Shown: in pieces, positions 6,810 to 54,936 of the stretch
How the letters are laid out: every line of letters starts with the position of its first letter
Position numbering within the stretch: position 1 is the first letter of the stretch
Assembly: GCF_009827515.1 (NCBI RefSeq)
Contig: NZ_WTYO01000002.1
Span: 124,001 to 188,000 of the forward strand
Reading direction: 5' to 3'
Length of the DNA stretch: 64,000 nt
Source of the DNA: Pelagerythrobacter marinus
GTDB taxonomy: Bacteria > Pseudomonadota > Alphaproteobacteria > Sphingomonadales > Sphingomonadaceae
Program-made: the position numbers and the translations under genes
Notes under the pieces: generated by a model
Seen by the model: only the letters and a program-made list of their open reading frames with translations
Told to the model about the DNA's origin: nothing
Database searches by the model: none

Positions 6810-6886
6810 GCGATCGTAGCTCAGTTGGTTAGAGCGCCGGTTTGTGGTACCGGAGGTCGCGGGTTCGAACCCCGTCGATCGCCCCA
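6810..6886 (+). tRNA. tRNA-His (GTG)
   Basis: Cloverleaf with acceptor GCGATCG/CGATCGC, D arm from 6819, anticodon stem CCGGT/ACCGG flanking a loop with GTG, and TPsiC arm with GGTTCGAACC. Discriminator base C73 (6883) and a genomically encoded CCA (6884-6886). G at 6809 supplies the G-1 that pairs with C73, the identity element of tRNA-His. Confidence 0.97.
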
Positions 6887-22185: not shown

Positions 22186-22231
22186 GCCTCGCCTCATAAC
22201 GGGGAAATGGGGTGGCGGAACCACCATGGGT

Positions 22232-22391
22232 CGTTTTCCGGGAAATCCTCTGACGCCTAAACGTCAGGTGGGCGCCGTATGCCCCGGCCCCCCGGACGAA
22301 CCAGTGAACCAGGGCAGGGACAGCTCCCGTTGGATTGCTTATAGCCTCAGGGATATTCAAACGGCTCGTGCCGGGCAGTCCCGCCGAGGTC
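22232..22391 (-). ncRNA. ssrS: 6S RNA (probable)
   Basis: About 160 nt between zapA and 5-FCL on the minus strand, the conserved position of ssrS across proteobacteria. No reading frame is present. Seen in the sequence: the central-bubble-like string CCCTGAGGCTATAAGC (complement of about 22337-22352), flanking arms that can pair (TGCCCGGC with GCCGGGGCA), and a hairpin CTGACG/CGTCAG (22250-22255 and 22262-22267). 6S RNA mimics an open promoter and binds the housekeeping RNA polymerase. Ends are approximate; the call rests mainly on synteny and fold. Confidence 0.65.
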
Positions 22392-49784: not shown

Positions 49785-50826
49785 CCGGCTGACGGCGGTT
49801 GTGGCGCACCGACCAGGCCAGCGAGATCAGGATCAGCGTCGCCCCGATCAGGCCGGTGATCGTTTCCGGAACGTGGAAGCGGGCAGAGAACAGCATGATC
49901 CCGCCCAGCGCGATGATCGCCCAGAAAGCCCCATGTTCGAGGAAACGGTACTGCGCCAGCGTGCCTTTCTCCACCAGGTGGATTGTCATCGAGCGCACGA
50001 ACATCGCGCCGATCGACAGGCCGAGCGCGATCACGATCATGTTGTTCGACAGGGCGAATGCGCCGATCACGCCGTCGAAGCTGAAGGAGGCGTCGAGCAC
50101 CTCGAGGTAGAGGAACCCGCCCAGCCCGCTGCGCACCGCCGCGCCGGCCAGTCGCTGTTTCTCTTCGTGGATCTCGAGGATCTTGTTGACGCCCTGCACG
50201 GCGATGAAGGTGACCAGGCCCAGGATGCCGGCGACGAGGAAGGTCAGGGCCTCTTCCGGCTCCAGCATCGCGGAAATGCCCCACAGGACCAGCAGCAGGA
50301 ACGCGATCTCCGCCGCCGGGAGCGCGGCGAAGCGCGACAGGTGCCGCTCTATCACCGCGATCCAGTGAATGTCCTTCTCGTTGTCGAAGAAGAACTTCAG
50401 GCCCACCATGGCCAGGAAGGCCCCGCCGAAACCGGCGATGCCGACGTGGGCCGAGCTCACGATAGCCTCGTACTCCTGCGGCCGGTTGAGCGAGAGGTCG
50501 ATCGTGTCGATCGGCCCCAGCCCTGCCGCGATCGCGACAATGGCGAGCGGGAAGACGATGCGGGTGCCGAACACCGCGATCGCGATGCCCCAGATCAGGA
50601 AGCGCCGTTGCCAGACCGGGTCCATGTGCCGCAGCACCGTGGCGTTGACCACGGCGTTGTCGAAGCTGAGCGAAATCTCGAGGATCGAGAGGACCAGGAT
50701 GATCCACAGCATCGACAGCGTGCCGGCGAGCGTGCCGGTGCTGGACCAGCCGTACCAGATCCCCAGCGCGAAGCAGGTCGCGGTGAAGACCAGCGAGAAC
50801 TTGTAGAAGCGAAGCAGCGTGGCCAT
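49747..50826 (-). CDS. DUF475 (TerC-like) membrane protein
   Basis: 359 residues with about nine helices, of the DUF475 family related to TerC/Alx. Conserved acidic membrane motifs are visible: ISLSFDNAVVNATVLR and, in the second half, LDASFSFDGVIGAFALSNN, a paired repeat typical of metal-ion exporters in this superfamily. Role in metal homeostasis is inferred from the superfamily. ATG 50826 gives MATLLRFYKFS. Confidence 0.88.
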   Translation of the reverse strand: MATLLRFYKFSLVFTATCFALGIWYGWSSTGTLAGTLSMLWIILVLSILEISLSFDNAVVNATVLRHMDPVWQRRFLIWGIAIAVFGTRIVFPLAIVAIAAGLGPIDTIDLSLNRPQEYEAIVSSAHVGIAGFGGAFLAMVGLKFFFDNEKDIHWIAVIERHLSRFAALPAAEIAFLLLVLWGISAMLEPEEALTFLVAGILGLVTFIAVQGVNKILEIHEEKQRLAGAAVRSGLGGFLYLEVLDASFSFDGVIGAFALSNNMIVIALGLSIGAMFVRSMTIHLVEKGTLAQYRFLEHGAFWAIIALGGIMLFSARFHVPETITGLIGATLILISLAWSVRHNRRQPVTPTGGNASPDA

Positions 50827-51793: not shown

Positions 51794-51908
51794 GCCCCGG
51801 TTCTAGCGGCGTTGGGGGCAAGCGCCAACCGCGCCCTTGGCCTTTGGTCGAAAACTTGCAACAGGGCTTTCAACAGGGGCAGAATCGTTGAGAGGGAGAG
51901 ATACCGGG

Positions 51909-53342
51909 ATGGTCGCAAGTGCAGGTGCGCAAGCAGGTGAGCAGGGCTGGTCCTCGCGCACGGCATTCATCCTGGCGGCCGTCGGCGCCGCCGTGGGTCT
52001 CGGCAACATCTGGCGTTTCCCGACCCTTGCGGGCGAAAACGGGGGCGGGGCCTTCGTCCTTGTCTACCTGGTCTGCGTCCTCCTGATCGGCCTGCCGCTG
52101 ATGTTGTCCGAATTCGTGGTCGGCCGGGCGGGACAGTCCGACGCGATCGGCTCGGTCGCCCGCGTGGCGGAGGAATCGCGCGTTTCGCGCAAGTGGCGCC
52201 TTTTCGGCGGGATCGAGATCCTCGCCGGGTTCCTGATCCTCTCGTTCTACTCGGTCGTCGCCGGCTGGGTCCTCTATTACATCTGGCTTTCGGGCGGCGA
52301 TTTCTTCGGCAACCTCTTCGCGGGCGAACCGCTGCGGGGCGCGTTCTCCGACATGGGGCAGGATGCCGTCAGCGGGATGATGGGCGAGCTGTTCGCGAGC
52401 CCCGGCCGCCTGATCGGGGTCCACGCCCTGTTCATGGTCGCGACCATCACCATCGTCGCCAGCGGGGTGCACGACGGAATCGAGAAGGCGGCCACCTGGC
52501 TCATGCCTGCGTTCTTCTTCCTTCTGCTCGGCATCACGATCTACGGCGCGTTCACCGGCGACTTCGAACGGGCGCTGGCCTTCATGTTCACCCCCGATTT
52601 CTCCAAGCTCACGGCCCCGGCGATCAACGAGGCGCTGGGCCAGGCGTTCTTCTCGCTCAGCCTCGCCTCGGGCGCGCTGATCACTTACGGCGCCTATGTC
52701 GGGCGCGAGGTGAACCTGGCGCCCACCGCGGCCACGATCAGCGTTGCCGATACCGGCGTGGCGCTGATCGCGGGCCTGATGATCTTCCCGATCGTCTTTG
52801 CCGTCGGCCTGGACCCTTCGGCCGGCCCGGCGCTGATCTTCCAGTCGCTGCCGGTCGCGTTCCAGACGATGCCCGGCGGCTCGCTGATCGGGTTGCTCTT
52901 CTTCGTCCTGATCTTCTTCGCCGCCCTGACCAGCTCGATCTCGCTGCTCGAAGGGCCCACCGCCTGGGCGATCGACCGCTTCGGCCTGCGCCGTCCCGCG
53001 GCCGCGATCATGATCGGCGGCGGGGCCTTCGTCATCGGCATTGCCTGCGCGCTGGGATACAACGTCTGGTCCGACGTGCGCCCGCTCGGCTTCTGGAGCA
53101 TTTTTGCCGAGGCCGACATTCTCGATACGCTGGACGGCTTTACCGGCAAGCTCATGCTGCCGCTGGCCGGCCTGCTGATGTCGATCTTCGTCGGGTGGAA
53201 GGCCGATCGCCGGCTGGTCGAGATGCAGAGCGGCCTGAGCGGGGGGCTGTTCCTCGCCTGGCGCTTCCTGGTCGCCTGGGTGTGCCCGATCGCGGTGGCC
53301 CTGATCCTGGTCTTCGGCCTGTTCCCCGAACTGCTGGTGTAG
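51909..53342 (+). CDS. sodium-dependent NSS-family symporter
   Basis: Neurotransmitter:sodium symporter family; bacterial members usually import amino acids with Na+. 477 residues and twelve predicted helices. The unwound first helix with the GNIWRFP motif is clear, followed by ENGGGAF. ATG 51909 lies eight bases after a GAGAGGGAGAG ribosome site; the longer upstream frame is not credible. Substrate not determinable. Confidence 0.93.
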   Translation: MVASAGAQAGEQGWSSRTAFILAAVGAAVGLGNIWRFPTLAGENGGGAFVLVYLVCVLLIGLPLMLSEFVVGRAGQSDAIGSVARVAEESRVSRKWRLFGGIEILAGFLILSFYSVVAGWVLYYIWLSGGDFFGNLFAGEPLRGAFSDMGQDAVSGMMGELFASPGRLIGVHALFMVATITIVASGVHDGIEKAATWLMPAFFFLLLGITIYGAFTGDFERALAFMFTPDFSKLTAPAINEALGQAFFSLSLASGALITYGAYVGREVNLAPTAATISVADTGVALIAGLMIFPIVFAVGLDPSAGPALIFQSLPVAFQTMPGGSLIGLLFFVLIFFAALTSSISLLEGPTAWAIDRFGLRRPAAAIMIGGGAFVIGIACALGYNVWSDVRPLGFWSIFAEADILDTLDGFTGKLMLPLAGLLMSIFVGWKADRRLVEMQSGLSGGLFLAWRFLVAWVCPIAVALILVFGLFPELLV

Positions 53343-53520
53343 CTTCACGCCGCTGTCGCCTCCGCCGCGCGCGGCGGCGATGCGGGAAACATGCATCGAA
53401 TCGCGGCCTCGTGCGTTGCAGGGGGGACCCCCGGTGGGAAATGCCCGCCGCTGGCGGCCAGGTGGCCGGCCGCAAGGCCGGGACCGAGGCCGGTTTCTCC
53501 CCTGGACGAACGGAGCCGCA

Positions 53521-54150
53521 ATGCGAGAGTCCGACAGTTCCGAGATGGAAGCCCCCGAGACATTGCCCGGGGTCGGCGAGGCCATCTGCAATTGCCGCGC
53601 CTGCCCCATCGGGGCGCTCGACAACCGCGCCGTCATGGGCGAGGGCCCGCGCGACGCGCCGCTGATGATCGTCGGCGAACAGCCGGGCGATGTAGAGGAT
53701 CGCGCGGGCCGGCCCTTCGTCGGGCCGGCCGGGCGCCTGCTCGACCAGCGGCTTGCAAAGGCCGGCATCGAGCGCGAGCGGGCCTATCTCACCAACGCCG
53801 TGAAGCATTTCAAGTTCGCCCGCCGGGGCAAGCGGCGGCTGCACAAGTCGCCCACGACCGGAGAGATCGACACCTGCCGCTGGTGGCTCGAACGCGAACG
53901 CGCGATCGTCGCGCCGCGCCTCGTCCTGGCGCTGGGCGTCAGCGCGGCGCGCGGGGTGCTGGGCAAGACGGTCCGCATCTCCCGCTCGCGGGGGGAGGGG
54001 ATCACGCTCGGCGACGGGGCGGAAGCCTGGGTCACGGCCCATCCGTCGTACCTCCTGCGGTTGAGCGGCGGGAAGAAGGCGGAGCAGGAGCGGCTTTTCG
54101 ATGCCGACCTGGCCGCTGTGAAGGATCGCCTGGAGGAACTGACCCGATGA
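53521..54150 (+). CDS. udgX: UdgX-family uracil-DNA binding glycosylase
   Basis: Uracil-DNA glycosylase superfamily member of the UdgX type, which excises uracil and stays covalently bound to the abasic site. 209 residues. Motif A GEQPG (52-56), the UdgX-specific loop GKRRLH with His108, and the HPSYLLR motif near the C terminus. Candidate iron-sulfur ligands are Cys25, Cys28, Cys119 and perhaps His96, which replaces the family 4 cysteine in NAVKH. ATG 53521 is preferred over the upstream frame. Stand-alone; no radical-SAM partner gene adjacent. Confidence 0.9.
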   Translation: MRESDSSEMEAPETLPGVGEAICNCRACPIGALDNRAVMGEGPRDAPLMIVGEQPGDVEDRAGRPFVGPAGRLLDQRLAKAGIERERAYLTNAVKHFKFARRGKRRLHKSPTTGEIDTCRWWLERERAIVAPRLVLALGVSAARGVLGKTVRISRSRGEGITLGDGAEAWVTAHPSYLLRLSGGKKAEQERLFDADLAAVKDRLEELTR

Positions 54151-54201
54151 GCGACCGCGCCGGCCCGCGCCTTTTCCACTCCCGGCCGCCCGGGGGCGCC
54201 C

Positions 54202-54936
54202 TTGGCTGAGCGGGGCGCCGGCATCTCTCGCCGCATCGGTCGTTTTCGCGGCGACTTGCGCGTGGCTGCCCTGCTGATCGTGGCCGGCATCCTGCTGGCG
54301 GGGCGCGGCTGGCTGGCGGACCACCCGCAGCACAATCCCTGGGCGCCGCTCGACCTCGACGACCCGCCGGGATGGGCGACGCGCACGAAGCTGCTCGCGC
54401 TGAAGGACGACCTGGCCGAATGCCGCGCGGTGCTGGAGCGCAGCGATGTTTCCTTTCGCGCGCTGGAGAGCCAGGGAGAGGGCGCCTGCCACCGCCCCGA
54501 CCGCACCGTGATCGAAACGCTGCCGCTTGCGCCGCGCGTACCGCCCACGACCTGCCCGGTGGCGGTCGGGCTGGAGCTATGGCTGCGCGATATCGTCCAG
54601 CCAGCCGCGCGCCGCCACTTCGGCGCCGAGGTCAGCCGGATCGAGCACATGGGCGCCTATAGCTGCCGCCGGCTCTACGGCCGATCCGAAGGGCGGTGGA
54701 GCGAACATGCGACCGGCAACGCGATCGACATCGGCGGTTTCGTGCTGGAGGACGGACGCCGGATCAGCGTGCTCGGCGACTGGCCGGGGGAGGGGGAGGC
54801 GGCGCAGTTCCTGCGCGAGGTGCGCAATGGTGCCTGCCCGCTGTTCGCGACGGTCCTTTCGCCCGATTACAACGCGGCCCACGCCAACCATTTCCACTTC
54901 GACCAGTCGGGCCGCTACACCGGGGTCTGTCGGTGA
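54202..54936 (+). CDS. extensin family protein
   Basis: 244 residues: N-terminal membrane anchor (about 20-36), then a D-Ala-D-Ala carboxypeptidase-like extensin domain. Metal or catalytic residues are suggested by EHATGNAIDIGGF and HANHFHFD, and four or five cysteines may form disulfides (ECRAVLE, GACHRP, YSCRRL, GACPLF). The start is a TTG at 54202, the only candidate in frame after the preceding stop; see the finding about the overlapping ATG at 54147. Confidence 0.85.
   Translation: MAERGAGISRRIGRFRGDLRVAALLIVAGILLAGRGWLADHPQHNPWAPLDLDDPPGWATRTKLLALKDDLAECRAVLERSDVSFRALESQGEGACHRPDRTVIETLPLAPRVPPTTCPVAVGLELWLRDIVQPAARRHFGAEVSRIEHMGAYSCRRLYGRSEGRWSEHATGNAIDIGGFVLEDGRRISVLGDWPGEGEAAQFLREVRNGACPLFATVLSPDYNAAHANHFHFDQSGRYTGVCR

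Follow-up and report, generated by a model that had tools for sequence, protein, structure and literature searches.

A free-standing UdgX of Pelagerythrobacter marinus, probably released from an SOS mutasome locus

The window analysed here, a stretch of 64 kb of the Pelagerythrobacter marinus genome, carries a solo UdgX gene (53521..54150, + strand, 209 aa) that was probably freed from an SOS mutasome locus, and whose product is predicted to act as a single-turnover uracil trap that is probably expressed constitutively. The identification of the protein is in itself ordinary, and it is the history of its locus that is of interest. The biological role of UdgX, which the original prediction called unresolved, is indeed described as ‘largely unknown’ in PMC10359453, which also mentions that UdgX serves as a tool, both in base editors and in assays for DNA uracil. 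An ancestor inside an SOS mutagenesis cassette provides a testable frame, comprising damage-induced expression, a partnership with DnaE2, and the gains and losses of solo genes.

Identity of the window protein and its iron-sulfur ligands

The UdgX frame opens with an ATG at 53521, preceded by GGAG five bases upstream, and closes with a stop codon at 54148-54150. An in-frame ATG at 53380 was considered as a longer start and rejected, since the resulting extension is by eye unlike the linkers of fused relatives and GGAG precedes 53521. The protein matches TIGR03914 with 289.3 bits (E-value 2.1e-86), above the cut-off of 189.95, as well as the Pfam UDG family PF03167 (E-value 6.7e-34). Results of a phmmer search show that chains of MsmUdgX are the nearest structures (E-value ~1e-44), with family-4 enzymes as the next best. 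An AlphaFold2 model built from an alignment of 54 sequences (pLDDT 90.7, pTM 0.88) leads to the same neighbour: the best 30 Foldseek matches are all MsmUdgX entries, the top one with a TM value of 0.86 and 43% identity. The assignment to UdgX, originally made from GEQPG, GKRRLH and HPSYLLR, is thus borne out, and its coordinates, strand and frame are exact.

Alignment places motif A, GEQPG, at residues 52-56 (53674..53688, +), where Glu53 and Gln54 correspond to E52 and Q53 of MsmUdgX. The R-loop KRRLH, with the capture histidine His108, occupies residues 104-108 (53830..53844, +), and motif B, HPSYLLR, residues 174-180 (54040..54060, +). In Msm numbering, E52, Q53, D56, D59, F65, N91, K94, R107, H109, H178 and R184 are all retained; the roles of the catalytic residues of UdgX are described in PMC10359453 and PMC10776899. 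Arg106 and His108 align to Msm R107 and H109, the pair given in PMC10359453 as the UdgX signature, with Pro and Asn at these places in family 4. The covalent-capture loop claimed around His108 is intact in the sequence, and the window protein is, judged by its residues, a genuine UdgX for which adduct chemistry is predicted. Motif B keeps His174, Ser176 and Arg180; Tyr177 departs from the printed consensus HPS(S/A)(L/V)(L/V)R, as does this fourth motif place in all but one of the 101 fused relatives, with Tyr in 86 and Phe in 14.

All four iron-sulfur ligand positions, arranged as C-x2-C, H, C, are present: Cys25 and Cys28 in CRAC (53593..53604, +; Cys in 101/101 fused relatives), His96 in NAVKH at the third position (53806..53808, +) and Cys119 at the last (53875..53877, +). 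Family-4 UDGs have Cys as third ligand, and His96 had been read as a departure from Cys. It proves instead to be the rule, as this position (Msm 95) is His in MsmUdgX and in every one of the 101 fused relatives compared; His96 as the mark of a new Fe-S variant was discarded on the same ground. Among 15 solos, 13, including the window gene, retain C24, C27, H95 and C120 (Msm numbering), and in the remaining two, from genomes G096 (L201:5983-6579, −) and G118 (L202:6335-7090, −), the four ligand positions are gone together. This joint loss of the histidine with three cysteines supports a role of His96 as an Fe-S ligand. The two ligand-less proteins still pass TIGR03914 (226.0 and 218.8 bits, respectively) and retain E52, Q53, N91, R107, H109, H178 and R184; they look like UdgX proteins without an iron-sulfur cluster and, being 55% identical to each other, may share a single origin. 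The L201 frame sits behind a LigD-type ligase gene and a 206-aa frame, and a scan of viral contigs with it gave no match.

The window locus in sibling genomes and among fused relatives

The solo gene is flanked on the left by a gene for an SNF-family sodium-dependent transporter (symporter; 51906..53342, +; NF037979, PF00209) and on the right by one for an extensin-like protein (54202..54936, +; Extensin-like_C, PF06904), with gaps of 178 bp (53343..53520, +) and 51 bp (54151..54201, +) between them. The locus was compared with six sibling genomes of the genus (G001-G006), five of which have the symporter there and all six the extensin gene. G001, G003 and G005 show a collinear order of symporter, permease, ImuA, ImuB, radical SAM, DUF4130::UdgX, DnaE2 and extensin, in which the amino-acid permease, ImuA, ImuB, radical SAM and DUF4130 take the place of the 178-bp gap and DnaE2 that of the 51-bp gap. 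The same cassette lies 5′ of the extensin gene in G004, with panB directly next to the permease and no symporter detected. In G002 and G006 the symporter and extensin genes are adjacent, with gaps of roughly 0.2 and 0.13 kb. Descent of the window gene at this very locus is supported by the cassette that G001, G003 and G005 carry between the same two genes. The original description of a gene sitting alone between a symporter and an extensin-family gene therefore holds for the window, but misses what the sibling comparison points to, namely an emptied SOS mutasome site.

Cassette remnants were sought in the 178-bp and 51-bp gaps, where all scores stayed within the range of shuffles and none was found. 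Neither a DUF4130 fusion nor an adjoining TIGR03916 gene was detected at the window locus, nor a sigma-70-like promoter upstream of UdgX. The highest identities of the window protein are to the sibling same-locus copies (73-75%), with 67% to the fused copy in its own genome, and the base composition of the gene is that of its neighbours. It aligns with fused proteins from residues ~10-12 onward, which places the presumed break in or near the linker. At L134 (G001), the same locus as L067, a frame change falls inside the UdgX domain of DUF4130::UdgX; an assembly error is possible there. Elsewhere, the window holds a 6S RNA (Rfam, 53.5 bits) at 22214-22384 (−) and three tRNA genes at 6810, 21190 and 33486.

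The P. marinus genome (3.0 Mb, 16 contigs) encodes UdgX twice, as the window gene and as a long frame on contig 8. This second copy (L007) is a DUF4130::UdgX fusion (TIGR03915 and TIGR03914) that follows immediately on a radical SAM gene (TIGR03916). Two more PF03167 proteins are present, a family-1 Ung and a TIGR04274 DNA-deoxyinosine glycosylase. The genome has its own imuA-imuB-dnaE2 on contig 8, near 249.6 kb; no mutasome genes were seen beside L007 or beside the fused copy of G006.

Fusion is the common state of the relatives: at 77 of 80 named loci UdgX is the C-terminal domain of an in-frame DUF4130::UdgX protein, and a radical SAM gene lies upstream of 76 of these 77 within the stretch examined. 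The three others comprise L067, broken by a frame change, and the solos L060 and L072. Within 6-kb flanks of the named loci, DnaE2 is the next gene downstream at 29/80, ImuB lies upstream at 25/80 and extensin downstream at 23/80. This mutasome setting is found mostly in Erythrobacteraceae and in some Novosphingobium, and it is limited to part of the group, since 51 of the 80 loci are without DnaE2 next downstream and the fused copies of P. marinus and G006 stand apart from mutasome genes. Nor were mutasome genes seen next to the UdgX copies annotated on plasmids of Paracoccus yeei, Azospirillum oryzae and Sulfitobacter pontiacus. In Bradyrhizobium sp. AUGA SZCCT0176 (L129) both systems are joined in a second way: the operon of radical SAM and DUF4130::UdgX and that of ImuA, ImuB and DnaE2 are transcribed divergently, and a single LexA-type box lies in the stretch that separates them.

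In the careful tree, computed after removal of 13 duplicate loci, the window protein falls within a supported clade of 30 rows (96/86), 26 of which are fused, and which itself lies inside larger, mostly fused clades. Its end branch is long (0.46). The nearest rows by path are the fused L013 and L054 in this tree, the siblings being nearest only in a quick tree; forcing the window protein together with the sibling same-locus copies costs 6.17 lnL (AU p 0.405), a grouping neither rejected nor established. The solo label needs at least five changes on the careful tree, where the bootstrap is not fully settled and L130 is counted as solo though a contig end cuts its upstream side. The quick tree is larger and has more solos; nine near-identical fused rows and the Msm row were removed from it, and L130 and L134 were placed in neither group. 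It requires nine changes by parsimony, five of them forced by supported branches (SH-aLRT only).

LexA-type boxes and the free-standing state

The motif GAACN7GAAC / GTTCN7GTTC, the LexA box of Alphaproteobacteria, lies no more than 150 nt ahead of the radical SAM start at 75 of 76 named loci tested, most commonly at −17, where shuffles would lead one to expect 0.32 (4 of the 80 loci were left out for having no radical SAM match or too little upstream sequence). It also precedes imuA in all 17 cases tested, a set that omits ImuA genes with less than 320 nt upstream. The fused copy of P. marinus itself has such a box at L007:6201, at −17 of the radical SAM gene. By contrast with the 75 of 76 fused loci, the whole 64-kb window has no GTTCN7GTTC match (1.3 expected by chance), and none lies in the 450 nt upstream of the window UdgX, so that the check for SOS-box control of this gene, suggested at the outset, came out negative. 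A degenerate box was also tried and dismissed: at three changes the window has seven matches where 5.8 would be expected, all of them away from the gene, and the nearest with up to three changes is at 49858. The lack of an SOS box suggests that the window UdgX is probably always on, and a single cell thereby offers a natural comparison of two copies, the fused one with its LexA-type box and the solo one lacking it.

When the 450 nt ahead of the domain were examined in the 15 solos, a LexA-type box turned up in only two. In L072 (Altererythrobacter segetis) and L197 (G170) the order is ImuB, box, solo UdgX and DnaE2, with ~2.4 kb between ImuB and UdgX in L197. Judged by gene order, both loci resemble an intermediate that has shed radical SAM and DUF4130 but still has its mutasome surroundings.

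LexA control of a Bacteroidetes UDG operon, COG1573-COG4277, is reported in PMC8565304, which cites earlier reports of such control for Verrucomicrobia and Alphaproteobacteria. In the ImuB-C/SRAP neighbourhood study (PMC3765255), DUF4130 is predicted to be a mutagenesis-related enzyme and is associated with radical SAM and uracil glycosylases. The published COG1573-COG4277 operon is taken here to be the DUF4130::UdgX/radical SAM system. SOS control of the UDG-radical-SAM operon is already published; its equation with the UdgX system, and its placement in these bacteria inside imuA-imuB-dnaE2, are links drawn here between two bodies of literature, which other papers may also contain. A limited search found no literature joining UdgX with LexA or the SOS response, and such work may exist elsewhere.

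In a survey of the family, TIGR03914 matched at an E-value of ≤1e-60 in 139 of 199 genomes, at 144 places. Solos were first chosen by an open frame shorter than 300 aa (14 of the 144 places), and G110 (345 aa), which has no DUF4130 match and no radical SAM gene, was added as the fifteenth. No radical SAM match was found in 11 of the 15 solo-bearing genomes, so that the retention of solo UdgX does not depend on radical SAM; the four others (G000, G018, G096 and G229) hold a radical SAM gene together with a second, long UdgX frame. E52, N91, K94, R107, H109, H178 and R184 are retained in 15/15 solos. A custom two-ratio codon model (22 sequences, 199 codons) gives an omega value of 0.084 for the window branch and 0.068 elsewhere (2ΔlnL 0.52, not significant), the former averaging fused and solo phases over a saturated synonymous length, so that it cannot date the constraint. 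Neutrality is rejected on the window branch (2ΔlnL 63.6), and its dN/dS argues against long decay.

Val140 of the window protein (53938..53940, +) aligns to Msm A141, one of the DNA-contact positions listed in PMC10359453. All but one of the 101 fused relatives have Ala here, and its replacement at a near-invariant contact position counts against the explanation favoured here. In a thinned set, 91 of 92 fused proteins have Ala at position 141, whereas eight of the 15 solos have Val or Gly, and no other column at least 96% conserved in the fused set differs in as many solos. With five supported independent pairs and a median p of 0.25 in the sign test, position 141 was rejected as an established mark of solos and is kept as a lead only.

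Plasmid and phage records gave 446 and 38 matches, respectively, none of them with 60% identity or more to the window protein. These low identities, together with a single relative (L130) in a viral-contig scan limited to close relatives, led us to reject a viral origin. At L130 (1-2385; IMG/VR), a UdgX frame starts with the very first base of a viral contig of 41 kb, beside a serine recombinase gene, and this contig edge is possibly a provirus boundary. A solo UdgX of Agrobacterium vitis (L211:4965-5597) keeps the four Fe-S ligand positions and lies on a plasmid typed as conjugative.

Origin of the solo gene and comparison with known systems

The data directly show the family and residues of the window protein, its gene order, its position among fused relatives in the tree, the lack of a box and a constrained branch; its activity, expression and role, and the deletion events at its locus, are inferred. 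On this reading its ancestor would have formed the C-terminal part of a DUF4130::UdgX protein whose gene stood between those for ImuB and DnaE2, within a translesion-synthesis cassette under LexA control that filled the interval from symporter to extensin gene. In the window lineage this site would then have lost the permease, ImuA, ImuB, radical SAM, DUF4130, DnaE2 and the LexA boxes, and one break in or near the linker would have left the UdgX domain as an open gene. Following the mechanism described for UdgX in PMC10359453, the protein is predicted to flip uracil out of DNA, His174 and Asn92 aiding expulsion of the base and Glu53 activating His108, which would then bond to C1′ of the abasic sugar and form a stable protein cap. 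Such a cap would keep the abasic site from being cut until the protein is cleared by recombination or proteolysis. The window UdgX would act as a low-level, always-on trap, and the second, fused copy keeps its LexA box.

The most serious rival holds that the solo gene is a functionless, decaying remnant of the deleted cassette. It would explain a gene left at the inferred site of that cassette without LexA box or partners, its long branch and the second, fused copy in the genome, and it fits the sibling loci, with nothing between the landmarks in G002 and G006 and a fused gene broken by a frame change in G001. We nonetheless hold it to be improbable, because the frame is open and has a ribosome-binding site, every catalytic residue tested is retained, as are the seven residues common to all 15 solos, and the codon model rejects neutrality. 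Horizontal transfer of an already free-standing UdgX into the symporter-extensin interval is less credible still. Solo UdgX genes on plasmids exist, as in A. vitis, and the placement inside the 30-row clade is unsettled, with the siblings not being the nearest rows in the careful tree; transfer would, however, need a chance landing, in the same orientation, exactly where siblings carry the fused gene, and it has against it the top identities to those siblings, the matching base composition and the distance of all matches in the plasmid collection. That the protein turns over as a common family-4 uracil-DNA glycosylase does, leaving no lasting adduct, can be given almost no credence: the family-4 model TIGR00758 does match, yet its 122.9 bits are below the cut-off of 125.3 and far under the TIGR03914 score, and the protein has the signature pair of UdgX, Arg106 and His108, instead of the Pro and Asn of family 4 (PMC10359453).

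Release of a predicted uracil trap from the mutasome locus remains the preferred account of the window gene. A wider proposal, tentative and on balance doubtful, is that UdgX is a working part of SOS translesion synthesis, made together with ImuA, ImuB and DnaE2 and capping uracil or abasic sites at stalled forks against cutting. Radical SAM and DUF4130 would process the adduct or a related lesion, and the solos would be repeated LexA-free escapes serving as always-on traps, with an altered contact at 141 and, in one small group, without the Fe-S cluster.

Among known systems, family-4 UDGs share the fold (TM values of 0.80 for T. maritima 1VK2 and 0.78 for T. thermophilus 1UI0) but, as described in PMC10359453, are without the R-loop histidine and have a different motif A. 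MsmUdgX (PDB 6AJO, 6AIL and 6IOD) is closest: besides the overall fold, the two proteins have in common their free-standing state, GEQPG, NAVKHFKF, the KRR-hydrophobic-His loop and the catalytic residues tested. The window protein differs from it in having Tyr rather than Ser at the fourth place of motif B and Val rather than Ala at 141, in being two residues shorter before the GKRR loop, and in being nested among fused genes. With the DUF4130::UdgX/radical SAM operon (TIGR03915, TIGR03914 and TIGR03916) it shares the UdgX domain, at the identities given above for the sibling same-locus copies and for the fused copy of its own genome, but is without radical SAM, DUF4130 and LexA-type box. As for the imuA-imuB-dnaE2 SOS cassette, the window gene stands where siblings have theirs, with fused UdgX inside, whereas none of the cassette genes was found at the window site. 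SRAP proteins (HMCES/YedK) have a fold unrelated to UdgX and do not excise uracil. Their likeness is one of working only, covalent capping of abasic sites, for which HMCES is cited in PMC10359453, and SRAP genes likewise adjoin mutagenic polymerases (PMC3765255).
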